Positions 21,488 to 31,360 of a DNA stretch of 64,000 bases are shown here, piece after piece. The stretch spans positions 62,001-126,000 of the forward strand of contig DAIDKP010000023.1 of the NCBI GenBank assembly GCA_027449965.1, read 5' to 3'. The stretch comes from Acidobacteriaceae bacterium. Its GTDB lineage: Bacteria > Acidobacteriota > Terriglobia > Terriglobales > Acidobacteriaceae. Position 1 is the first letter of the stretch, and each line of letters opens with the position of its first letter. The notes below the pieces were generated by a model. It had not been told where the DNA came from. It saw nothing but the letters and a program-made list of their open reading frames with translations, and made no database searches. Made by a program: the position numbers and the translations under genes.

Positions 21488-22060
21488 ATGAAGCTCAAGA
21501 TCGCTGCTTTTGTTCTTGCCCTGGCTGCTCCCGTAGCCTTCGCTCAAACCACCACCTGGAAGTCTGACCCCGCTCACTCCGAGGTCGATTTCGCCATCAA
21601 GCACATGTCGCTCACCAACGTCCACGGACGCTTCGGCGCCGTCAACGCCACCATCACCTACGATTCGGCCAATATCGCCAAGTCCTCCGTCGCCGCCACC
21701 ATCAGCGTCACCGGCGTCGATACCGGCGAAGCAGCGCGCGATAATCACCTCAAGACCGACGCCTTCTTTGACGTTGCCAAATACGCCACCGCCACCTTCC
21801 AAAGCACCAGGGTGGAGAAGTCCGCCGACGGCCTCACCGTCACCGGCAACCTGACTCTTCGCGGCGTCACCAAGCCCGTTGTGCTCCAGGTCACCGGACC
21901 CACCGCACCCGTCACCGGCATGGACAAGAAGCAGCATGTCGGCTTCGAGGCCACAACGACGATTCACCGTCAGGACTGGGGCATCGGCACCAGCTTTCCC
22001 TCGGCCATCCTCGGTGACGACGTCAAGATCGACATCGAACTCGACGCCGCACAGCAGTAA
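21488..22060 (+). CDS. YceI family periplasmic lipid-binding protein
   Basis: A clear signal peptide (MKLKIAAFVLALAAPVAFAQ) is followed by a 170-residue YceI lipocalin-like domain (WKSDPAHSEVDFAIKHMSLTNVHGRF, SITGVDTGEAARDNHLKTDAFFDVAKY, NLTLRGVTKPVVL). YceI proteins bind polyisoprenoids or amphiphiles in the periplasm. A MarR-type regulator follows 53 nt downstream on the same strand, a common pairing. Confidence 0.93.
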   Translation: MKLKIAAFVLALAAPVAFAQTTTWKSDPAHSEVDFAIKHMSLTNVHGRFGAVNATITYDSANIAKSSVAATISVTGVDTGEAARDNHLKTDAFFDVAKYATATFQSTRVEKSADGLTVTGNLTLRGVTKPVVLQVTGPTAPVTGMDKKQHVGFEATTTIHRQDWGIGTSFPSAILGDDVKIDIELDAAQQ

Positions 22061-22113
22061 TTGCAACTTGCGCGGGAGCGATTTCGCTTCGTTCCCGCGC
22101 ATCCCCGGCACAC

Positions 22114-22740
22114 ATGACCTCGCAGCCCACCCAATCCGCATTCTCCAGCCCTCAGGCTGAGTTGTTCCTGCGCCTGCTGCGCGTCTCTGACCAGCTCAAT
22201 CGAGCCTTCCAGCTTCGTCTTCGTCCATTCCAGCTCACCCATCCGCAGTACAACGTCCTGCGCATTCTGCGCGGCGCGCCTGCCTCCGGTCTCACATGCT
22301 CGTCCATCGGCCACAGCATGATCACCGCTGAGCCGGATATCACCCGCCTGCTGGCTCGCCTGCGCCTGCGCAAACTTGTCGCGCAACATCGCGACCCCGC
22401 AGACCGCCGCGTCGTCTGGACGCGCATCACCTCACGCGGACTCGCGCTCCTCAAGGAACTTGACCCCATCGTTGAACGTGAGCCGCAGCTGCTCCTTCGC
22501 GCGCTCTCTGCCGATCAGATCCATCAACTCAATGTCCTGTTGCAGTTGCTGGGCAGCGGCTCCCAGCCAGACCATCCACCGCTGTGTCCTGGCTCAGCCA
22601 GCGCATCGTCGCCTCTGGCAACCGACAGCCTCGCTCAATCCTGTCCCGCTGCCAGCCCCACCCATCCCGACGAGGCTCCCGGCTCCGGAGTCCTCAGACG
22701 CTCCGCTCCACGCGTGACGGCACCGCGGGTTCCTCGGTAA
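22114..22740 (+). CDS. MarR family transcriptional regulator
   Basis: The 208-residue product has a winged-helix MarR domain at about 15-145 (LTHPQYNVLRILRGAPASGLTCSSIGHSM, DITRLLARLRLRKLVAQHRDPADRRVVWTRIT), including the recognition helix and the DPADRR wing. The C-terminal 60 residues are Pro/Ser-rich and unstructured. It probably regulates the preceding YceI gene or itself. Its 3' end overlaps the convergent response regulator by 47 nt. Confidence 0.88.
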   Translation: MTSQPTQSAFSSPQAELFLRLLRVSDQLNRAFQLRLRPFQLTHPQYNVLRILRGAPASGLTCSSIGHSMITAEPDITRLLARLRLRKLVAQHRDPADRRVVWTRITSRGLALLKELDPIVEREPQLLLRALSADQIHQLNVLLQLLGSGSQPDHPPLCPGSASASSPLATDSLAQSCPAASPTHPDEAPGSGVLRRSAPRVTAPRVPR

Positions 22741-23467
22741 TGATCTTGTTGTGCAGGCAATACAGTGCCAGCTCCAGCCGGTCTGAAACGCCCAGCTTGT
22801 CATAGATCTTCCGCAGATAATTCTTCACCACCTGGTCAGAAGTTCCAAGCTGATAGGCAATCTCCTTGTTCCGCTTGCCCTGCGTGATCCCGGTAATAAT
22901 CACCATCTCTTTGGCCGTCAGCTTGGCCTGCGATTTGGGATGAATCAGCGATTGCGCCTGTGACCGATACGCTTCGATCACCAGATTCACCGACTGGTTG
23001 TCGATCCACGTCTCGCCGTGGGCAATCTTCCTCACGCACTTCACCAGCAGGTCCGGCGAAATCGAGCGCGAGATCACCCCGCGCACACCCTTCCGATACA
23101 TCTCCAACATACCCTGATCATCCGACTGCGAAGCCTGCACAACAATCTTGATCTCCGGCGCAATCTTCAGCAGATTCGGAATCGCATCCACCGTTCCCGC
23201 CAGCAGTCCGGCTTCCATCAGCAGCACATCGCTTGGATATCGCTCCACTGCCGCAAACAGATTCTCCATCGTGTCAGCTTGCGCCACCACTCGCAGATCG
23301 TCCTCCAATGCAAAGATCTTCCGAATTCCCACCCGATAGATCGCCTGCGAGTCCGCCAGGATTATGCGAGTCGCATTCGGGTTCGCAACAGACTCGTCCA
23401 CTTCCAACTCTGCGGCTTCGTGCGATTTGTTGGCTGTCTTCTTTGGCCCTGTCACTTCACTCTCCAT
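22694..23467 (-). CDS. LuxR-type response regulator with degenerate receiver
   Basis: The 257-residue protein has an acidic leader, a receiver-like domain at about 33-150 and a LuxR/NarL HTH at about 180-245 (LTAKEMVIITGITQGKRNKEIAYQLGTSDQVVKNYLRKIYDKLGV). The receiver lacks key residues. The phosphoacceptor Asp is replaced by Glu85 (SDVLLMEAGLL), the acidic pair ADDH reads ADSQ at 38-41, and the conserved Lys is not present in GVISRSIS. It is therefore probably not controlled by normal phosphorylation. Its ATG directly follows the TAG stop of the PilZ gene, so the two are translationally coupled. An orphan regulator tied to cyclic-di-GMP sensing is a plausible role. Confidence 0.85.
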   Translation of the reverse strand: MESEVTGPKKTANKSHEAAELEVDESVANPNATRIILADSQAIYRVGIRKIFALEDDLRVVAQADTMENLFAAVERYPSDVLLMEAGLLAGTVDAIPNLLKIAPEIKIVVQASQSDDQGMLEMYRKGVRGVISRSISPDLLVKCVRKIAHGETWIDNQSVNLVIEAYRSQAQSLIHPKSQAKLTAKEMVIITGITQGKRNKEIAYQLGTSDQVVKNYLRKIYDKLGVSDRLELALYCLHNKIITEEPAVPSRVERSV

Positions 23468-23827
23468 CTACAGTTCCGAAAACCTGTAATTATCAATCGT
23501 CGCTGCCAACAAAAAGGCTCCGTCCCTTGCCTGACATCGCACCACGCGACCCTGGCAGGAAATACGCACATCCTTGGCAGCTCCCATCGCTTCTCCCGGC
23601 ATATTCAGTTGAAATCGAATGATCTGGCCAGGATTCATCGCCTCGCTCGTCAGCAGCGAAATTCCGCTTGCCGACACATTCTCCGTCTTTGCCGCCACAC
23701 TCTTCTCATCCCAATACACCGTCACAGGCAGATTCAACGGAAAGCGCACCGCTGCGCGGACTCCGGTTGCACTTTCCGCCTGTGCAATCTTCAACACGTC
23801 TTTGAACCAAGGCTTCATTTCGTTCAT
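23468..23827 (-). CDS. PilZ domain protein (cyclic-di-GMP-binding type)
   Basis: The roughly 119-residue product carries the PilZ motifs RAAVR (RxxxR) near residue 25 and NVSASG ((D/N)xSxxG) about 30 residues later, both needed for cyclic-di-GMP binding. The start is uncertain: ATGs at 23863, 23827 and 23818 are all in frame and none has a good ribosome-binding site. The TAG stop abuts the ATG of the response regulator. The pair suggests a cyclic-di-GMP-linked switch acting on transcription. Confidence 0.85.
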   Translation of the reverse strand: MNEMKPWFKDVLKIAQAESATGVRAAVRFPLNLPVTVYWDEKSVAAKTENVSASGISLLTSEAMNPGQIIRFQLNMPGEAMGAAKDVRISCQGRVVRCQARDGAFLLAATIDNYRFSEL

Positions 23828-24057
23828 GGTCGAGCTTCGGCGTCTCCATCCCATCCCGAACATCCCATGCTGGAACGTTCATGGCTGGAACATCCGATTC
23901 TGGAAACACTGTATCGAACCGCCTTCCTGGCTCGCTGAAACCAAAGTTTCGTCAGCCAACCCAAAGTACTGTTTCTAAGGTACCCAAAACAATCCTGCTT
24001 TTGTGCCACCCACTCACCGAAAAGATGCAAAATTCCCCATATTCTGCTCCGCTCGCC

Positions 24058-25383
24058 TCATTTCCCCCGCACGCCAAAGGCCGCCGAAGCGCCCACCCAT
24101 TCCATATCCCGATTATGATCCACGCCCATCATCGCGCCTCGACCCAGCCGCACCAGGCTCATCGCTGCCGTCATCCGGCCCCCATCCGGCCACGCATACA
24201 GAATCCGAATCTCCGCCTGCGTCATCCCGTGCGGCGTCGCAATCGTCGGCTCAAACCGCATCCGCTGCTGCACAAGATACTGCCCGCGCTCGCCCGCCGG
24301 AATCGCCTCCAGCTCCGCATCGCTTGGCGCAAAGACAATCCCCTTGCCGGCAAAGGAAAACAGCGGCTTCAGCAGCAACTCGTCATAGACCGCGCCCAAC
24401 GACCGACGCTCCGGCAGCGGCACGCCCGCCCGCTGCAACGCCGCATAACCCGGTCCAAACCCCTGTCCGTCCAGAAAATCTGACAGAAACGCCGCCGGCG
24501 GCACAGCCTCATGCGCCGGCATCGCACAGCCCCCCACCGTCCCGCTCAGATACGGCAACGCAAACTTGCTCACGCGAAAATACCAGTTCGGATGCCCGGC
24601 CCACTCCACATCCCACTCCGCCTCCAGATCAAACCGCAGCCTCACACGCTTCGCCATCATCTCGTCGGCAATCGCGCGGTTATAAATCCGCCGAATCTCG
24701 ATCTGTCGCCCCCGCGCGTCGCGGTAATACAGCTTCCGGCCTGCTGGCTCAATCTCGGCAATATCCACCACGGCAATCCCCAGCCGCTCGGCCGTCACCC
24801 GAAAATCCGGCAGCGTCTTCTGCCGCTCCGGCGTCACCTCGGCCAGCACCACCTGCTCCGGCGCGTGGCTGCCCACAATCGTCCGCCGCAGCAGATCCCA
24901 GTAGCCAGCCTCGTCCAGCCCGCTCAGATACGTTCGCAGCTCGCCCGGCCTCTCGCCGCCCAGCCCGTACGCGCGACGATATTCCTCAGCCAGCACCGCC
25001 TGATAGCCAAAGACCGACGGAAAGGCCTGCAACTCGACCAGACGCGGCACCAGTTCTCCATCCCCGTCGCGCATCCCGCCGCGCACCAGCGCAAAATCCG
25101 CCGTCATGAAATGCGGATGCGCGCTCTCGCCCGCCACGCGATACCCGGCAGGAATTGACTGCTCCGCCGCCGCCAGATACCCCGCATCGCCCAGCAACCG
25201 CTCGGTCAGCTCGCGGCCCGTCTCGGCGAGCCTGTCCAGCAGCGCCTGAGGCAAAAACACCGGCGTCTCCGCCACGCGAAACCGAATCGCCGTCCCGCAC
25301 CGCGCCTCCAGGTCCGTCAGCAGCCGGGCATAGCCCTCAGCCGTATACCGAGCATTGAACTCCCGCCGCAGACGCTCGATCAT
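24058..25383 (-). CDS. Uncharacterised protein, resembles permuted ATP-grasp enzymes
   Basis: I do not recognise a named family for this 441-residue cytoplasmic protein. The segment ELLLKPLFSFAGKGIVFAPSDAELEAI followed by QYLVQQRMRFEPTIATPHG resembles the Lys-containing nucleotide loop of ATP-grasp ligases, and ELQAFPSVFGYQA with FRVTAERLGIAVVDI recalls glutathionylspermidine-synthase-like permuted ATP-grasp proteins. It would then join a carboxylate to an amine using ATP. AGGTGAGG precedes ATG 25383. It stands alone and divergent from the repeat-peptide locus; a hairpin with a T-run (25531-25576) lies in its upstream region on its own strand. Confidence 0.6.
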   Translation of the reverse strand: MIERLRREFNARYTAEGYARLLTDLEARCGTAIRFRVAETPVFLPQALLDRLAETGRELTERLLGDAGYLAAAEQSIPAGYRVAGESAHPHFMTADFALVRGGMRDGDGELVPRLVELQAFPSVFGYQAVLAEEYRRAYGLGGERPGELRTYLSGLDEAGYWDLLRRTIVGSHAPEQVVLAEVTPERQKTLPDFRVTAERLGIAVVDIAEIEPAGRKLYYRDARGRQIEIRRIYNRAIADEMMAKRVRLRFDLEAEWDVEWAGHPNWYFRVSKFALPYLSGTVGGCAMPAHEAVPPAAFLSDFLDGQGFGPGYAALQRAGVPLPERRSLGAVYDELLLKPLFSFAGKGIVFAPSDAELEAIPAGERGQYLVQQRMRFEPTIATPHGMTQAEIRILYAWPDGGRMTAAMSLVRLGRGAMMGVDHNRDMEWVGASAAFGVRGK

Positions 25384-25530
25384 CGCCTCACCTCGTCCCC
25401 GCCCGGCCAGCCCGCTTGGGTTCCATCTGAAATCCTTCCATCCAATGGACTTGCACCCATCGCCAACCCGATCTCACAGTCAAACCGCCGCGAGCATATC
25501 ACGGAATACCCCCACCCTCATCAAAAGTGT

Positions 25531-25576
25531 AAAAAAATAACCCAAAAGCAGCACCACCGTTACCACTTTTGGGTTA
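25531..25576 (-). terminator. Perfect 11-bp hairpin with T7 tail, minus-strand terminator or attenuator
   Basis: TAACCCAAAAG at 25538-25548 and CTTTTGGGTTA at 25566-25576 form a perfect 11-bp stem with a 17-nt loop. On the minus strand the stem is followed at once by seven T (25537-25531), as in an intrinsic terminator. No supported minus-strand gene ends upstream of it, so it may act as a leader attenuator for the gene at 24058-25383, end an antisense RNA, or be an operator. Confidence 0.65.
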
Positions 25577-25633
25577 CCCTTGCCTTAGTTTGGCCCACTT
25601 GGGCTAGACAGTTTCCAGTTTTTCAATCCAGCA

Positions 25634-25655
25634 TTGATCCAAAGTTTGATCCAAA
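25634..25655 (+). repeat. Direct repeat TTGATCCAAA x2, period 12
   Basis: TTGATCCAAA occurs at 25634-25643 and 25646-25655, just upstream of the ribosome-binding site of the repeat-peptide gene. It could be a protein-binding site or part of the leader. Confidence 0.5.
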
Positions 25656-25676
25656 TTCGAATCCAGGAGAACCCCC

Positions 25677-25841
25677 ATGAAAATGACCTTCGTTCGCCTC
25701 GCCGCCGTCGCCGCCCTCACCGTTTCCGCCTCCGCCGCTTTCGCTGGCCCAATGATTCCTCCGCCGCTCCCCACCAGTGGTTTCGTAGCGTCGTCCTCGT
25801 TTGGCCCGATGATTCCTCCGCCGCTCCCGACGAGCAATTGA
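25677..25841 (+). CDS. 54-residue secreted peptide with duplicated GPMIPPPLPTS motif
   Basis: ATG 25677 is preceded by AGGAG at an 8-nt spacing. The product opens with a textbook signal peptide (MKMTFVRLAAVAALTVSASA followed by AFA, then Gly). The predicted mature part is only 31 residues: GPMIPPPLPTS, a spacer GFVASSSF, a second exact GPMIPPPLPTS, and a final Asn. The two 33-nt copies (25746-25778 and 25803-25835) differ at four bases, all at third codon positions, so the peptide motif is identical although the DNA has drifted. I recognise no family. It precedes a 7-TM gene and a membrane-anchored gene on the same strand. A secreted signal peptide or proline-rich ligand is possible but unproven. 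Confidence 0.7.
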   Translation: MKMTFVRLAAVAALTVSASAAFAGPMIPPPLPTSGFVASSSFGPMIPPPLPTSN

Positions 25842-25967
25842 TCTGGGCCATCAAAGGCGAATAGAGAATTGATTGACGCTGGCCGCGATGAAATTCGAAT
25901 ACCCGGCGAAACGAACAACACTCTTACGCTTGGTCGGCATATTTGACCTGCTTCACCTCGAAGATTT

Positions 25968-26789
25968 GTGATCAAACTGCCGATGTATAGTACATTCGAG
26001 GCAGAAGTGAACCACGAGGCTGAGCTCGTATTAGTTGGTATGGCAGCAGAATGCTGCGTTTTTCTTCTGCTTTTAATGCGTCGCGGCTGGAAAGCAGTTC
26101 CTATTTTCACGCTATACACGTTGTGGACCATCGTCAGCGACGCATCGTTCGTGTTTACAAGAGTTTATTCAAGTGGATTGAAAAACTACCTCGTAGAGAT
26201 GGCTCTCGACTCTACATTGCAACTCCTCGTTCTGGCCGAACTTGTTCGATTAATAGTGCAACCAGTGCGTACGTCGCTGCCCAAAAAATATGCGCTTGTT
26301 GTTCCTTTACTCCTGATCATCCTGGGAGCTATTTGCTGGCCACTCGCGGGCTTCAGCGTTCCGCATGGCCTCAGTTCACAAGGGTACTTATTAGTAACTC
26401 TTCAACAGACGGTTGCATTACTTCGAGTGCTCATCTTCCTCACAATGGTTGCATTCAGCCAGTTTTTCTCAATTGGCTGGCGCGATCGTGTGCTGCAAAT
26501 CGCTTCCGGACTGGGCTTTTACTCGATCCTGTCGCTGATCGTTTCCGTTCTCCACACCCATCAGGCGGTCGGACCACAGTACCACTGGCTCGATCTCGTA
26601 ACCTCCTTCGGTTACCTTGGTACATTGGCCTATTGGGTCGTCTCTTTCGCACAAAAAGAGCCGGAAGCGCGAAAAATCAGCCCACAAATGGTGCGTTTTC
26701 TGGTATCAATAGGGGGAACGGTGCAAGCTGAAAGACTCGCGCTTGAAACCGCTGTGAAGAAGAAACCGGGCAATCAGAATCACTTTTAG
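25968..26789 (+). CDS. 7-TM membrane protein of unknown function
   Basis: The 273-residue protein shows seven evenly spaced hydrophobic segments, starting with AELVLVGMAAECCVFLLLLM and ending with GYLGTLAYWVVSFA, and a basic cytoplasmic tail of about 45 residues. No catalytic or known receptor motif is seen. The start may be GTG 25968 or ATG 25983; neither has a strong ribosome-binding site. Base composition is clearly more AT-rich than neighbouring genes, which suggests different history or recent acquisition. It is followed after 11 nt by a coupled gene, and preceded by the secreted repeat peptide, so a sensor or exporter role for that peptide is a reasonable guess. Confidence 0.8.
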   Translation: MIKLPMYSTFEAEVNHEAELVLVGMAAECCVFLLLLMRRGWKAVPIFTLYTLWTIVSDASFVFTRVYSSGLKNYLVEMALDSTLQLLVLAELVRLIVQPVRTSLPKKYALVVPLLLIILGAICWPLAGFSVPHGLSSQGYLLVTLQQTVALLRVLIFLTMVAFSQFFSIGWRDRVLQIASGLGFYSILSLIVSVLHTHQAVGPQYHWLDLVTSFGYLGTLAYWVVSFAQKEPEARKISPQMVRFLVSIGGTVQAERLALETAVKKKPGNQNHF

Positions 26790-26800
26790 GGGATTTGGTA

Positions 26801-27328
26801 ATGTTGCTACCGTTACTTCAGGTCATCTTCCTCGGTGCCTTGCTCCTTTATCTCGCCAAGTGGCGAGGCAGTATGCGCCGCCGCAATATCAAAAGCTGGG
26901 ATCAGCTTTTCGCTCAGCTCCGCACCGACTGGAGCGCCCACGCCGTCTGCGACCAGTTGCTGTGGAAAGAAGGCATGAGCGCGAACCACAATGACATCTG
27001 GGAAAAGGTCAACGGACCTTTCGGCCTTTGGGTCATGTTCAAAAACGCTCGCGTGCTGCTGGAGATGGCCGACTTCGCCGCCCGCAACGCCTCGCCGGAT
27101 AACCCTGTTGATCCGCTCCTGATCGAGTCCATCCGCACCGACGCCATGCAGATTCGCCTCTGCGTCCTCATGGCCATCATGCAATACGGCCTTCAGGCCG
27201 TCTCCGCTGGCGCTCGCATCAACGCTTGGCGTGCCGCCGAAACCTACGTCATGATGACAGCTCGCCTCACGCGCATCCTCCAGGAACATGCCGCACTTCA
27301 GCTCCCCAGCTTCGTTGCTGCCATGTAA
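26801..27328 (+). CDS. Membrane-anchored protein of unknown function
   Basis: ATG 26801 lies 11 nt after the previous stop, with AGGGGA overlapping that stop codon, so translation is probably coupled. The 175-residue product has one N-terminal membrane helix (LLPLLQVIFLGALLLYLAKW), a basic patch (RGSMRRRN) that puts the rest in the cytoplasm, and a helical soluble domain with no family I recognise. It closes the unit that contains the 7-TM gene; a strong terminator follows. Confidence 0.78.
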   Translation: MLLPLLQVIFLGALLLYLAKWRGSMRRRNIKSWDQLFAQLRTDWSAHAVCDQLLWKEGMSANHNDIWEKVNGPFGLWVMFKNARVLLEMADFAARNASPDNPVDPLLIESIRTDAMQIRLCVLMAIMQYGLQAVSAGARINAWRAAETYVMMTARLTRILQEHAALQLPSFVAAM

Positions 27329-27347
27329 GCCGTCCTCCTGCGAACAT

Positions 27348-27379
27348 AAAAAAGCCCCGGCCAGTGCCGGGGCTTTTTT
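27348..27379. terminator. Strong bidirectional terminator
   Basis: AAAAAAGCCCCGG at 27348-27360 pairs with CCGGGGCTTTTTT at 27367-27379 around a 6-nt loop. The A-run and T-run make it work in both directions, serving the 7-TM operon and the convergent aldo/keto reductase. Confidence 0.9.
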
Positions 27380-27396
27380 GTGCTCTCGCGGGGCCA

Positions 27397-28377
27397 CTAG
27401 GCCACCGGATTCTCTGCCAGAAACGTCTGAATCCGAGCATACTCCTCGTTCTCGAGTCGGAAGCTCAGCGCCGGAGCTATCCCCTTCACCTGCTCCGGGC
27501 TGCGTCCGCCCACAATCGCCGCGGTAATCGCGGGATTGTGCAGCGTCCACGCCACCGCCACCACACCCGGCTCCACGCCATGCGGCTTGCCAATCTCCCG
27601 CAACAGCTCCACCAGTCGCAGGTTGCGGCTCAGGCGCGGCTCGTTGAACTCGACCGCACGTCGCCGCCAGTCATCTGCCGGCATCTGCGCCACGCGTTCG
27701 GCGGTCATGCGCCCTGTCAGCAGGCCGCTCACCATCGGTGAGTAGTTGATGACGCCGATCCCCTGCTCCAGGCAGTAGGGCAGAATCGCCTCACCCACCG
27801 CCGGGCGCAGCATCGAGTACGGTGGTTGCAGGCTCGTCACCGGCGCAATCGCCTGCACGCGTTTCAACTGCTCCACGTTGAAGTTCGAGACGCCAATCCA
27901 GCGGATCTTGCCCGCCTTCTGTTGCCGCGCCAACTCCGACCAGCCTTCCTCCATCTCCGCCTCGGGATTGGGCCAGTGAATCTGGTAGAGGTCAATCGTC
28001 TCCACGCCCAGCCGTCGCAGCGACTCGTCCAGCTCCTCGGCCACGTTCTTCGCCTTCAGCGAGCGATAGATCTTCCGCTCCCCATCCCAGCGCATCGAGC
28101 ACTTGGTAAAGATCAGCGGTTTCTCGCTCAATCCCTTCACCGCTCGGCCTACAATCACCTCCGAGTGGCCCAGCCCATACACCGCCGCCGTGTCAATCCA
28201 GTTGATCCCCGTGTCCAGCGCCGCATGAATCGCGGCAATCGAAGCCTCATCGTCCTGCGGTCCCCAGGCAAACTCCCAGTTTCCGCCGCCAATCGCCCAG
28301 GCGCCAAAGCCAATCGAGGTCAACTCCAGATCCGAGTTGCCCAGCCGTTTCTTCGCAAAAGCATTCTTTGTGGTCAT
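27397..28377 (-). CDS. Aldo/keto reductase
   Basis: The 326-residue protein has the AKR catalytic tetrad Asp62 and Tyr67 (NWIDTAAVYGLGHSE), Lys92 (IFTKC) and His134 (LYQIHWPNP), and the NADPH-loop region VGGRSPEQVKG near the C-terminus. Such enzymes reduce aldehydes and ketones or oxidise sugars with NADP(H) in the cytoplasm. The natural substrate is not apparent. AAGGAG lies 11 nt before the ATG. A 75-nt gap separates it from the aminopeptidase gene upstream in the same direction. Confidence 0.92.
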   Translation of the reverse strand: MTTKNAFAKKRLGNSDLELTSIGFGAWAIGGGNWEFAWGPQDDEASIAAIHAALDTGINWIDTAAVYGLGHSEVIVGRAVKGLSEKPLIFTKCSMRWDGERKIYRSLKAKNVAEELDESLRRLGVETIDLYQIHWPNPEAEMEEGWSELARQQKAGKIRWIGVSNFNVEQLKRVQAIAPVTSLQPPYSMLRPAVGEAILPYCLEQGIGVINYSPMVSGLLTGRMTAERVAQMPADDWRRRAVEFNEPRLSRNLRLVELLREIGKPHGVEPGVVAVAWTLHNPAITAAIVGGRSPEQVKGIAPALSFRLENEEYARIQTFLAENPVA

Positions 28378-28452
28378 ACCAGTTCGATGCTCCTTGTCTC
28401 ATTTTGTTGCAGATTCCGCAGCAGATTCTCTCGGAAAATCCTTGCCCGCGCG

Positions 28453-29502
28453 CTACCCTTCAATCAGAAAGCGCCCTTCGCGCATCATCTGCTCTTCGCC
28501 CGCCTCGGACTCCACCCAGATATTGAATCCCAGCCCCACCACATCGATATGCGTGCCGCTCGTCCACGGCGCGCCCGTATGCTCGCCATAAGGATTGCCA
28601 AACGCAATGTGGATGCCCGGAAACTTCTCATCCTGCAGGATATTGCCAATCACCCGCTCCACGCCCACATTCGTTCCAATCGCAAACTCCCCCACGCGAT
28701 TCGAGTTCTCATCGGTGGCGATATACGCCCGAAAATCCGCTTCCAGCTCCCGGTTGGCGCTCGTGCAGCTCACCACACGGTTTTCGGCAATCTCGATCGT
28801 GAGCGGCGCATCTGCCAGCAGCCCATAGCGCGCACAAAGCCAGTCGCCCACCACTCCATCCACCACAAACCGCCCGTTTACCTCGCCCGGCGTCGTAAAG
28901 CATTCACCACCCGGCAGATTTCCCCACTTGTCCCGGCTGATGATCCCGCTCGTCTTCAGCCAGCGGTACTCCGGATTCAGCTCCGCCACAATCGCCGTCC
29001 CCGCCGCCGTCGTCGCGCGAATGCGTCGCGCTCGCGTCACCCGCTCCATCACACGCTGCGACAGCCGATCCACGCGCGCATAGTCGGCCCGCATCCCCTG
29101 GCACATAATCTCCGGCGTAATATTCACCATGTGCGCGTGGCGCATCCGCCGCCGATTCACCACATCGGTCATCTGCATCCGGCTCTTCAGCTCGTTGCGC
29201 TGCACCGTGACGGCAAAGATCGACACATCCGACGTCTCCATATCGGTCAGCACGGCCGCTGGCATCTCCACCAGCGGACGCGGTGCCATATCCTCCAGCA
29301 GAAACGCGTTCCAGCGGCAGCCCACACGGTCCAGCGCCTCAGCCAGGGAAGCCGCAATCGTCTCCGTCACGCGGTCATGGATCAGCGTCACTTTTTCGTC
29401 CGCTTCCACGCGCAGGCAGGTCTCAATCGCCTGTCGCGCACCCGGCGCAAAGGCCTCTGGAAACTCTGTCTGACGCAACCGCGCCGCCTGTTCGTTTGCC
29501 AT
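28453..29502 (-). CDS. M29-like aminopeptidase family protein
   Basis: The 349-residue protein resembles the leucyl aminopeptidase/aminopeptidase T family (COG2309, M29-like), two-metal enzymes that trim N-terminal residues. Metal-ligand candidates are Glu in GNLPGGECFTTP, Glu in RVGEFAIGTN, His in GIHIAFGNPYG and His in SGTHIDVVG. It lies in the same direction as the downstream aldo/keto reductase. The N-terminal half is more divergent than the C-terminal metal-binding half. Confidence 0.8.
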   Translation of the reverse strand: MANEQAARLRQTEFPEAFAPGARQAIETCLRVEADEKVTLIHDRVTETIAASLAEALDRVGCRWNAFLLEDMAPRPLVEMPAAVLTDMETSDVSIFAVTVQRNELKSRMQMTDVVNRRRMRHAHMVNITPEIMCQGMRADYARVDRLSQRVMERVTRARRIRATTAAGTAIVAELNPEYRWLKTSGIISRDKWGNLPGGECFTTPGEVNGRFVVDGVVGDWLCARYGLLADAPLTIEIAENRVVSCTSANRELEADFRAYIATDENSNRVGEFAIGTNVGVERVIGNILQDEKFPGIHIAFGNPYGEHTGAPWTSGTHIDVVGLGFNIWVESEAGEEQMMREGRFLIEG

Positions 29503-29678
29503 CCCTGTCTCTTTTCGTCTTTCCGCGCCTGCCCTGCGTCTCAGTCTTCTGATTTTACTTGCCTGTATACAAATTCTGAAGCCTGCGTCCGATTTCGAGC
29601 TACAATTCCAGTCATCTCCGAAACTGCTCTTTTTCGCGTCGCACGATCCAACGCCAACCGCTCCCGAGGAGACCTGCT

Positions 29679-30461
29679 TTGACCGAACCCATTCAACCGT
29701 TTTCGAACTCGCCGATTTCCGGCTCGCCCTGTGCCGACGAAGCTGTTCTGTCCCCGCTCGCCTGCACCACCGGCGTCTTTTACCGCCCCACGCGCGTCTT
29801 TGAGTCGCTCACGCGCCGACCCTCCTGGTGGATGCCGTTTCTCGTCACCATGGTCGTCATCGGCCTCTTTTACTTTGCCGTCACCGCCAAAGTCGGCTGG
29901 CATCAGGTCTATGAAAACAACCTGCGCCTCGCTCCCAAACAGGCCCAGCAGATGGAAAACCTCACGCCTGAACAGCGCGCCAGCTCCGAAAAAGTCGCCG
30001 TCGGCTTCACTCAGGGCATCTGGCTCGGCATGCCTCTGCTCACCCTGCTTTTCGCGGCCATCGAGGCCGCCATCCTCCTCGGCACCATCAACTTCGTCTT
30101 CGGCGGTCGCGCCACCTTCTGGCAGGTCTACGCCGTCACCTGGTACGCCGGCCTGCCCGGCCTGCTCAAGTTCCTGCTCGCCATCCTCGCTCTCTTCGTC
30201 GGCCTCGATCCAGAGAGCTTCCAGATCAACAATCCGGCAGGCACCAACCTTGGCTACTATCTCAGCCCCACCGACACACCCAAAGCCTTCTACACCCTCG
30301 CCTCACAAGTCGATCTCCTCATGCTCTGGACACTCGTCCTCATGGGCATCGGCCTCGCCGTCGTCGCCCGCACCAAACGCAGCGCCGGCCTCATGGCTGT
30401 CTTTGCCTGGTGGATCGTCATCGTGCTCCTCAGCGTCGGAGCCACCGCTGCGTTCTCCTGA
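29679..30461 (+). CDS. YIP1 family membrane protein (copy a)
   Basis: The 260-residue protein has a short soluble leader and about five membrane helices. The RPTRVFESLTRRPSWWMPFLVTM segment and a later GGRATFWQVYAVTWYAG are typical of the bacterial Yip1 domain. The start is TTG 29679 with GAGGAGA eight bases upstream. Function in bacteria is unknown. A paralogue follows after 65 nt, with the same TEP N-terminal start, pointing to tandem duplication. Confidence 0.82.
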   Translation: MTEPIQPFSNSPISGSPCADEAVLSPLACTTGVFYRPTRVFESLTRRPSWWMPFLVTMVVIGLFYFAVTAKVGWHQVYENNLRLAPKQAQQMENLTPEQRASSEKVAVGFTQGIWLGMPLLTLLFAAIEAAILLGTINFVFGGRATFWQVYAVTWYAGLPGLLKFLLAILALFVGLDPESFQINNPAGTNLGYYLSPTDTPKAFYTLASQVDLLMLWTLVLMGIGLAVVARTKRSAGLMAVFAWWIVIVLLSVGATAAFS

Positions 30462-30526
30462 TTCCGTGCCCATTCCGCAGCCATGCGACTCGCCCATGCA
30501 GAATCAACCAGCACAGGAGGCCAGCG

Positions 30527-31360
30527 GTGACCGAACCGGAAGACTTCGCCCAACCATCCACTCCAGCCACTCCACACGACGCTGCCACGCTCGCCCCGTC
30601 GGTCATCGCGGCCCCTGCTCTGCTGCCGCTCTCGCCGCTGGCCTGTGCCGTGGGAGTGTTCTATCGCCCCACGCGCGTCTTCCGGTCGCTGGCAGAGCAA
30701 CCCACCTGGTGGGTGCCGCTCCTGCTCATGCTTGCGCTCACTACGCTTTTCTACTTCGGCACATGGTCCCGGATCAATGTGTCTCAGCTCATGCAGAGCG
30801 CGCAGCAGCATCCCAATCCGCAGGTGTGGCAGTTCAACAGCATGCCACCCGCCCAGCGTGCGCAAGCGGAGAAGTTCCTCACGCGCGGCGTTCGTTACTC
30901 GTGGATTCTCGGACCGCTGCTCAGCCTGCTCTATCTCGGAATCGAGTCCGTATTCCTGTTTTCTCTCTGCCGCCTCGCCTTTCGCGCAGAAGTGAGTCTC
31001 CGGCAAGTGAATGCCGTCGTCTGGCACTCCAGCCTGCCGAGACTGCTCCCGTTTCTGCCGCTGGCTCTCAAGCCGTTCCTCGGCCACACATTCGCCGCGC
31101 TCCAGTTCAAGAACATGAGCTATGCCGATCTCGCGTACTACTTCAACCCGGCCACCACGCCCCGGTTTCTCTACGCCGTCGCCAGCGTCATCGACTTTTT
31201 CACGCTCTGGACGTTTCTCCTGCTCGCCGTCGGTCTCGTCGTCGTCGCCCGCACCAAACGCATCCACAGCGCAGTCGCCGCGCTCATCTGGTGGCTTGGC
31301 CGCTGGATCGCGTTGATCGTCCTATTCCTGCTGGCGAGCCTGGCTGTGATGGCGATCTGA
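30527..31360 (+). CDS. YIP1 family membrane protein (copy b)
   Basis: The 277-residue paralogue shares the layout of copy a: a TEP-start leader, LACAVGVFYRPTRVFRSLAEQPTWWVPLLLM, and five membrane helices ending in LVVVARTKR. GTG 30527 has AGGAGG at 30515-30520, six bases upstream, and mirrors the start of copy a, so the open frame further upstream is not used. It probably forms an operon with copy a, closed by the terminator at 31422. Confidence 0.82.
   Translation: MTEPEDFAQPSTPATPHDAATLAPSVIAAPALLPLSPLACAVGVFYRPTRVFRSLAEQPTWWVPLLLMLALTTLFYFGTWSRINVSQLMQSAQQHPNPQVWQFNSMPPAQRAQAEKFLTRGVRYSWILGPLLSLLYLGIESVFLFSLCRLAFRAEVSLRQVNAVVWHSSLPRLLPFLPLALKPFLGHTFAALQFKNMSYADLAYYFNPATTPRFLYAVASVIDFFTLWTFLLLAVGLVVVARTKRIHSAVAALIWWLGRWIALIVLFLLASLAVMAI

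Follow-up and report, generated by a model that had tools for sequence, protein, structure and literature searches.

The question raised by this locus is what a small secreted protein, built of two exact copies of one short peptide, does beside a gene for a seven-transmembrane (7-TM) protein. The window, meaning the whole stretch of DNA analysed, comprises 64,000 nucleotides (nt) from an Acidobacteriaceae bacterium (assembly GCA_027449965.1, contig DAIDKP010000023.1, positions 62,001 to 126,000). The cassette lies on one strand of the window, in the order secreted-peptide gene, 7-TM gene, gene of the membrane-anchored protein p175, and terminator hairpin. Across relatives, the gene order is conserved, the precursor has a signal-type N-terminus, and the 7-TM protein evolves fast, with a variable outer side and a conserved inner side. 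The set extends far beyond the window: throughout Acidobacteriaceae its order is repeated, with another peptide at almost every locus. Our favoured reading, to which we give about an even chance, is that the cassette encodes a multi-copy peptide signal, its 7-TM receptor and p175 as an anchored transducer. The first-pass annotation had inferred that a secreted peptide is paired with a membrane protein that senses or exports it, and with an anchored protein. Our results support that layout, and the difference between the two faces of the 7-TM protein favours the sensor. Neither the peptide nor the 7-TM protein nor p175 had a Pfam or NCBIfam match above the cut-off.

Peptide precursor and selection on its copies

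The precursor gene (25677..25841, plus strand) encodes 54 amino acids (aa), and its AGGAG ribosome-binding site (RBS; 25665..25669, plus strand) lies 7 nt before the ATG. The predicted signal peptide MKMTFVRLAAVAALTVSASAAFA (25677..25745) has 23 residues and ends in AFA, after which cleavage is predicted. Signal peptides were called by motif rules throughout, and the N-termini of the orthologues (L144/L084, L145, L147 and L148) are of like type. Copy 1 of the peptide, GPMIPPPLPTS (25746..25778), begins at the predicted signal peptidase cut. It is followed by the spacer GFVASSSF (25779..25802), copy 2 of GPMIPPPLPTS (25803..25835), a single N and the stop codon, all on the plus strand. In several other precursors, copy 1 also begins directly at the predicted cut and has an X-Pro N-terminus. 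The sequence and its open reading frames (ORFs) bear out what had been claimed for this gene: the 54-residue ORF, the signal peptide, the strong RBS and the two exact copies. Of the 33 nt in each copy, 4 differ between the two, every one at a third codon position, again as described.

The first-pass annotation had cautioned that this substitution pattern alone leaves the coding strand unproven. The strand was settled by comparing copies across 63 arrays, in which copy number ranged from 2 to 16 (median 5). A total of 800 differences between copies fell at codon positions 1, 2 and 3 in the proportion 126/113/561. A first pass over 65 arrays showed that the silent share of changes was 68% in the plus frame, 61% in the in-register antisense frame and 11–15% in the remaining four frames. 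Two of these arrays (L120 and L130), for which the wrong reading frame had been picked, were left out of the 63-array counts. Where a change was silent in the plus frame or in the in-register antisense frame but not in both, the plus frame was favoured in 83 cases and the antisense frame in 22 (p = 1.6e-9). Antisense coding of the arrays was rejected on this count, and the doubt about the minus strand is thereby removed. The silent differences indicate that the copies have existed long enough for their DNA to diverge, with the encoded peptide kept the same within each genome. Judged by the codon pattern, the multi-copy peptide is under selection at the protein level.

The cassette lies between the same two flanking genes in the window and in four close genomes (L144, L145, L147 and L148). 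A chance repeat was rejected, since the orthologous genes there carry repeats of their own. The signal peptides of the five orthologues are alike and the cores differ. By eye, GPMIPPPLPTS occurs in 2 copies, GPGIPFPDPTTG in 6, GPGIPAPLPQSKG in 5, GPGIPSPLPTTKG in 2 and GPAIPFPDPTTG in 5; in L144 and in L148 the first copy is a variant. The peptide thus changes in nearly all copies together. Identity to the window was 90–95% for the downstream aldo/keto reductase, 83–91% for p175, 72–85% for the upstream gene and 55–68% for the 7-TM protein. The nonsynonymous rate (dN) against the window was 0.26–0.40 for the 7-TM protein versus 0.05–0.12 for p175, and ratios of dN to the synonymous rate (dS) are rough because dS is near saturation.

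A varying number of GPMIPPPLPTS repeats had been predicted for relatives. The number does vary, but the motif itself differs, with 61 distinct core strings among the 63 arrays. Acidicapsa dinghuensis (L149) has four copies of GPGTVPVDPSTIK, Occallatibacter savannae (L193) has five of FIPGIPSPKPIPANP, and the array of Paracidobacterium acidisoli (L222) carries AMIPSTPAPVPPPS. With a cut-off of E ≤ 0.1, a plain search with the window peptide hit 41 of the 200 family genomes, and most of these hits are noise; the peptide sequence changes too fast for such a search, which is nearly useless. The DNA upstream of 7-TM relatives holds a peptide gene whose sequence differs from that of the window.

Remote 7-TM genes (20–27% identity) mostly have a short secreted peptide that is single-copy or duplicated as a whole gene. 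Whole-gene tandem copies of a 39–59 aa precursor numbered 6 to 7 at L226, 5 at L282, 4 at L253 and 3 at L225 and L129; at L226 the six to seven successive genes encode a nearly identical 40-aa precursor. Repeats inside one gene and whole-gene copies reach the same dosage, so the unit of about 15–30 residues appears to matter, not a long repeat protein. A single-copy subtype with a GTDPxP-like core and a hydrophobic C-terminal stretch ending in GL or similar was seen at L116, L117, L129, L132, L136, L272 and L273.

Hypervariable secreted peptides beside a fast-evolving membrane protein, at several differing loci per genome, are also what a bacteriocin-type system would produce, in which the peptides hit competing relatives and the 7-TM protein confers self-immunity. 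Toxin-immunity arms races likewise yield hypervariable co-encoded pairs. Pore formers are commonly cationic or amphipathic, whereas the cores here are neutral and rich in Pro (31% Pro, 34 K/R, 24 D/E and no Cys over 63 cores). No dedicated ATP-binding cassette (ABC) exporter or leader peptidase was seen among the scanned neighbours in the window (YceI, MarR-like, LuxR-type regulator, PilZ, M29 peptidase, Yip1, aldo/keto reductase and two without a Pfam match). Immunity also needs no selected identical copies, no conserved inner face and no conserved third gene. We consider a bacteriocin unlikely, but worth keeping in mind.

The 7-TM protein

The 7-TM protein, the candidate peptide receptor, has 260 aa (26007..26789, plus strand). 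Its ORF is open from a GTG at 25968, but homology begins at the GTG at 26007, which has GAGG 5 nt ahead of it. The 126-nt gap to the peptide gene given by the first-pass annotation holds with the former start; with the start indicated by homology the gap is 165 nt. The AlphaFold2 model of the protein showed seven long helices and a C-terminal helix (helix 8), with a mean predicted local distance difference test score (pLDDT) of 89.6. The distribution of positive charges predicted an N-out/C-in topology. Family-wide, over 53 relatives, the mean column entropy was higher in outer loops (2.92) and outer helix halves (2.18) than in inner loops (1.36) and inner helix halves (1.51), with p = 6e-6 for loops and 1e-6 for helix halves. 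The most conserved sites lie on the predicted cytoplasmic side in 25 of 29 cases. Conserved polar or charged sites in or near the membrane are E78, Q152 and Q164.

Sec delivers a peptide to the periplasm in diderm bacteria, which we take these organisms to be, and the predicted outer face of the 7-TM protein lies there. This placement would suit periplasmic self-monitoring: a peptide retained in the envelope would have its amount or cleavage read by the 7-TM protein, and the cassette would thereby report on secretion capacity, protease activity or the state of the envelope, not on other cells. The resistance of X-Pro N-termini and Pro-rich cores to many peptidases would suit it too. A private, quickly changing peptide whose copies all change together is hard to fit to a housekeeping sensor, however, and we regard self-monitoring as quite unlikely.

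The 7-TM protein, with p175, might instead process or export the peptide, whose target would then lie elsewhere. Constant adjacency would also suit a maturation or export partner, and E78, Q152 and Q164 could be catalytic. The substrate side of such a protein is expected to be conserved, yet the outer side of the 7-TM protein varies most, and the precursor already has a Sec-type signal. Nor was any similarity found to transporter or protease families in Pfam or NCBIfam or to sequences in the PDB: the 7-TM profile had no match to PDB sequences at E ≤ 1, and 61 members matched three unrelated Pfam families, one member each, and no NCBIfam family. A role in processing or export is decidedly improbable in our judgement. 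PADLOC gave no defence-model match to the peptide or p175, and for the 7-TM protein only a TIR-effector model at E 0.065.

Association of peptide and 7-TM genes

The upstream regions of 7-TM genes were scanned with a strict detector. The detector required a start codon, an RBS, a basic N-terminus, a hydrophobic stretch, a cleavage motif and at least 10% Pro in the mature part. It was run on 131 distinct 7-TM genes whose upstream sequence was 450 nt or longer; 18 of the 161 genes had less than 450 nt upstream and 12 were second genes of tandem pairs (one with a peptide hit), and these were left out. A strict secreted Pro-rich peptide was present upstream of 94 of the 131 genes versus 7 of 382 control windows (2/143 antisense, 2/123 downstream and 3/116 further upstream). 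The Fisher test gave p = 9e-63 with kinship between loci ignored; because some of the loci are from genomes that are related to one another, p values that assume independence are too small. Counting Pro-rich tandem arrays as well, 105 of the 131 genes had a peptide or an array. The first-pass annotation had named, as grounds for refuting its reading, relatives that keep the 7-TM gene and lack the peptide; the outcome was the opposite.

Relaxed reading found peptide-like ORFs at several of the genes with neither a strict peptide nor an array, some of them lacking Pro. In one clade (L105, L109 and L114) the short signal-type ORF ahead of the 7-TM gene has almost no Pro and ends, for example, in EIWRWIMSL; these ORFs are perhaps another ligand type. 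Draft contigs end within or just upstream of the array at L090/L091 (G183:C122 and C76), L092, L093, L098 and L106. Some detector misses are truncations, since draft contigs break in or near the array, and short-read assemblies probably hide many arrays.

Relatives at E ≤ 1e-3 were found in 114 of 200 Acidobacteriaceae genomes for the 7-TM protein and in 52 of 200 for p175. A scan of 84,980 species genomes for p175 kept 80 loci, all titled Acidobacteria; 56 of them have a 7-TM gene in reach, and many show a peptide array. Of 347 genomes of the phylum, 46 matched the remote 7-TM profile: 37 belong to the window's family, for which 38 are listed, and 9 lie outside it. Thirteen loci outside the family were read by eye under a relaxed rule with no control, and six had a plausible secreted Pro-containing peptide upstream: GPWPFPDDSAGGNIAA in three copies (L265), GTGPIPPPAR in four (L268), DGMTGIPP in three (L286), GGSGIPPV in two plus a variant (L291), and a single-copy peptide at L284 and L285. 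Under the same rule, no upstream peptide was seen by eye at L266/L293, L267, L269, L287, L288, L289 and L290. Low-complexity Pro-rich repeats are common in surface proteins, and the arrays reach 16 copies, but repeats that merely form a structural or surface protein beside an unrelated 7-TM gene are very improbable and strongly disfavoured by the 7-TM association across remote lineages, including single-copy or whole-gene-duplicated short peptides, and by the probable peptide/7-TM pairs outside the family.

More than one 7-TM match occurs at 11 of the 80 p175 loci. Two differing 7-TM genes stand in a row between peptide and p175 at L168 (1987-3517), L161, L164, L169, L174, L179, L181, L187 and L194, as if the receptor were a pair. 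The window's own genome has two more remote 7-TM genes, L264 (G000:C29) and L292 (G000:C24); one of them has an upstream 46-aa secreted peptide ending in QFPYPILPQNSK, and at the other none was seen.

The third gene, p175

The p175 gene (26801..27328, plus strand) starts with an ATG 11 nt past the 7-TM stop. The two genes are close and do not overlap, and they are probably coupled, as had been claimed for an anchored third protein. The AlphaFold2 model of p175 is all-helical with an N-terminal membrane helix (mean pLDDT 82.4); the conserved helical part is predicted to be cytoplasmic, and p175 is the candidate transducer. Its relatives usually lie directly 3′ of the 7-TM gene. Searches of p175 against the PDB gave no sequence match at E ≤ 1, and the fold search gave no significant match, fumarase helices topping the list. 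A single Pfam hit was obtained among 56 members, by one member.

Within the class, 34 of 299 genomes matched the p175 profile, every one of them in the window's family, and no relative was found among 72,556 plasmid records. At remote 7-TM loci without a p175 hit, a filter gave an anchored candidate ORF in 20 of 40 cases. Fifteen of these, aligned (5 of the 20 candidate downstream proteins were left out), match the p175 profile with an hhalign probability of 95.8% (E = 7e-9). This match indicates that the third gene is older than simple searches show.

Among p175 loci lacking a 7-TM match, L167 has an array. At L162, L184, L188, L190, L192 and others, neither a 7-TM gene nor an array could be recognised within 2.6 kb of p175. 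At L089/L073 (G083:C44), p175 is interrupted by an in-frame TGA.

Proposed mode of action

We infer processing, binding, signalling, the part of p175 as transducer and the biological role as follows. The precursor would leave the cytoplasm via Sec, and signal peptidase would expose copy 1 (GPMIPPPLPTS in the window). A protease would cut the spacers and release several identical Pro-rich peptides of 10–20 residues. These peptides may act, from the periplasm or from outside, on the outer half of the 7-TM protein in the inner membrane. The conserved cytoplasmic face of the 7-TM protein would pass its state to the membrane-anchored helical p175, which would act on a target in the cell. Rapid diversification of the peptide, and of the 7-TM protein in its outer half, would give every species, and every paralogous locus within a genome, a private channel. 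A wider claim can be made at slightly less than an even chance: a phylum-wide, lineage-diversified peptide language of alpha-factor-like multi-copy secreted peptides, private 7-TM receptors and an anchored transducer, with several channels per genome and unrelated in sequence to the known bacterial quorum-sensing families.

Several results weigh against a peptide signal with a 7-TM receptor. Helix TM4 opposes the trend of outer and inner variability, and when only the five close orthologues are compared, the outer half is not significantly richer in variable sites (p = 0.15). Foldseek with the 7-TM model gave no significant match, none reaching E 0.001; among the 50 matches listed, nearly all were G protein-coupled receptors (GPCRs) or rhodopsins, including 5azd and 7zn0, with a best E of 0.19 and template modelling (TM) scores of 0.22–0.48. 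No kinase, cyclase or other output domain is attached. Dibasic (Kex2-type) sites are nearly absent, with 2 pairs in 5850 aa across the 63 array regions. In a direct test of coevolution between peptide and receptor, which was not significant, peptide similarity and 7-TM similarity, with p175 similarity removed, gave a partial Spearman-type r of 0.057 (permutation p = 0.16) over 60 arrays, 3 of 63 without a usable partner being left out, in a test of low power, as cores across genera are short and diverged. Finally, 26 of the 131 7-TM genes lack both a strict peptide and an array, and 24 of the 80 p175 loci have no 7-TM gene nearby, 5 of these having less than 700 nt upstream.

Comparison with known systems

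By analogy, the cassette resembles the fungal tandem-pheromone systems in its layout and in its proposed working but is not a member of them. Like P-factor and Mam2 of S. pombe and alpha-factor and Ste2 of S. cerevisiae, it has a Sec-type precursor with several tandem peptide copies, a varying copy number, a fast-changing peptide and a 7-TM partner. Kex2 processes the fungal pheromone factors, whereas the bacterial cassette nearly lacks dibasic sites, has its peptide and 7-TM genes side by side, and has a third gene of an unnamed family in place of a G protein. Unlike the fungal receptors, its 7-TM protein has no detectable sequence relation to GPCRs, and the resemblance in fold is weak. Across 150 wild strains of S. 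pombe, 4 to 8 P-factor repeats are reported, and both P-factor and Mam2 are diverse (PMC6342294). This variation is a close evolutionary parallel to the cassette.

The Agr and ComQXPA systems also encode a secreted hypervariable peptide beside a membrane sensor. The cassette differs from them in consisting of just the peptide, the 7-TM protein and p175. It lacks a histidine kinase as well as a processing gene of the AgrB or ComQ type; its precursor is tandem and multi-copy, and its 7-TM protein is unrelated to any Pfam or NCBIfam family. Multi-core precursors of ribosomally synthesised and post-translationally modified peptides, such as those of cyanobactins, share the presence of several cores in one precursor. 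Unlike them, the precursor here has a Sec-type signal in place of a recognition leader, and no modifying enzyme lies among the scanned neighbours in the window. Seven helices in an N-out/C-in arrangement are shared with GPCRs and with microbial and sensory rhodopsins, and sensory rhodopsins with a transducer have a membrane-anchored partner encoded next door as well. Unlike these, the 7-TM protein has no significant structural or sequence match, and p175 matches no solved structure.

Our search of open full-text literature, with subscription papers and preprints outside it, found no report of such a cassette and no peptide signalling described for Acidobacteriota. The gene set is apparently undescribed so far.

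Other features of the locus

A strong hairpin of the rho-independent terminator type (27345..27382, plus strand; −35.4 kcal/mol, z −7.5) closes the cassette, in agreement with the terminator reported by the first-pass annotation; it was absent from the output of a simple terminator scan. The AT-richness noted for the 7-TM gene was confirmed as a dip in guanine plus cytosine content to 0.48–0.51 in windows over 25750-26749, against 0.52–0.68 in the rest of 22000-31000. The flanking genes lie on the opposite strand and encode a 441-aa protein without a Pfam match upstream and the aldo/keto reductase downstream.

A conserved element upstream of the peptide gene, GTTACCACTTTTGGGTTACCCTTGCCTTAGTTTGGC (25559..25595, plus strand), is a possible promoter or regulator site and has a near-identical counterpart in L084, L145 and L147. 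The string GTTACCACTTTTGGGTTACYCTTGCCTTAGTTTGGC at 25559-25595 contains a GTTAC direct repeat with a period of 14 and is found upstream of the peptide genes of the same three loci; going by this recurrence, it is a possible shared regulator site. The pattern TTAC-N0-4-TTTTG occurred in 14 of 94 upstream regions of peptide genes versus 2 of 415 control windows. A search of 25380-27460 gave no promoter of the sigma-70 type. A LuxR-type response regulator and an adjoining PilZ protein (22697-23863, minus strand) lie about 2 kb from the cassette, outside it.

Significance

Whatever its function, the cassette leaves to be explained three protein families that no database names, together with a multi-copy peptide that is both hypervariable and under selection. 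Dozens of peptide sequences with candidate receptors are ready, and specificity is directly testable with synthetic peptides in cultured strains, among them Acidicapsa dinghuensis, Occallatibacter savannae and Paracidobacterium acidisoli. If the receptor reading is true, Acidobacteriota, one of the commonest phyla in soil, would have a bacterial peptide signal that comes from a tandem multi-copy precursor and is read by a 7-TM protein.

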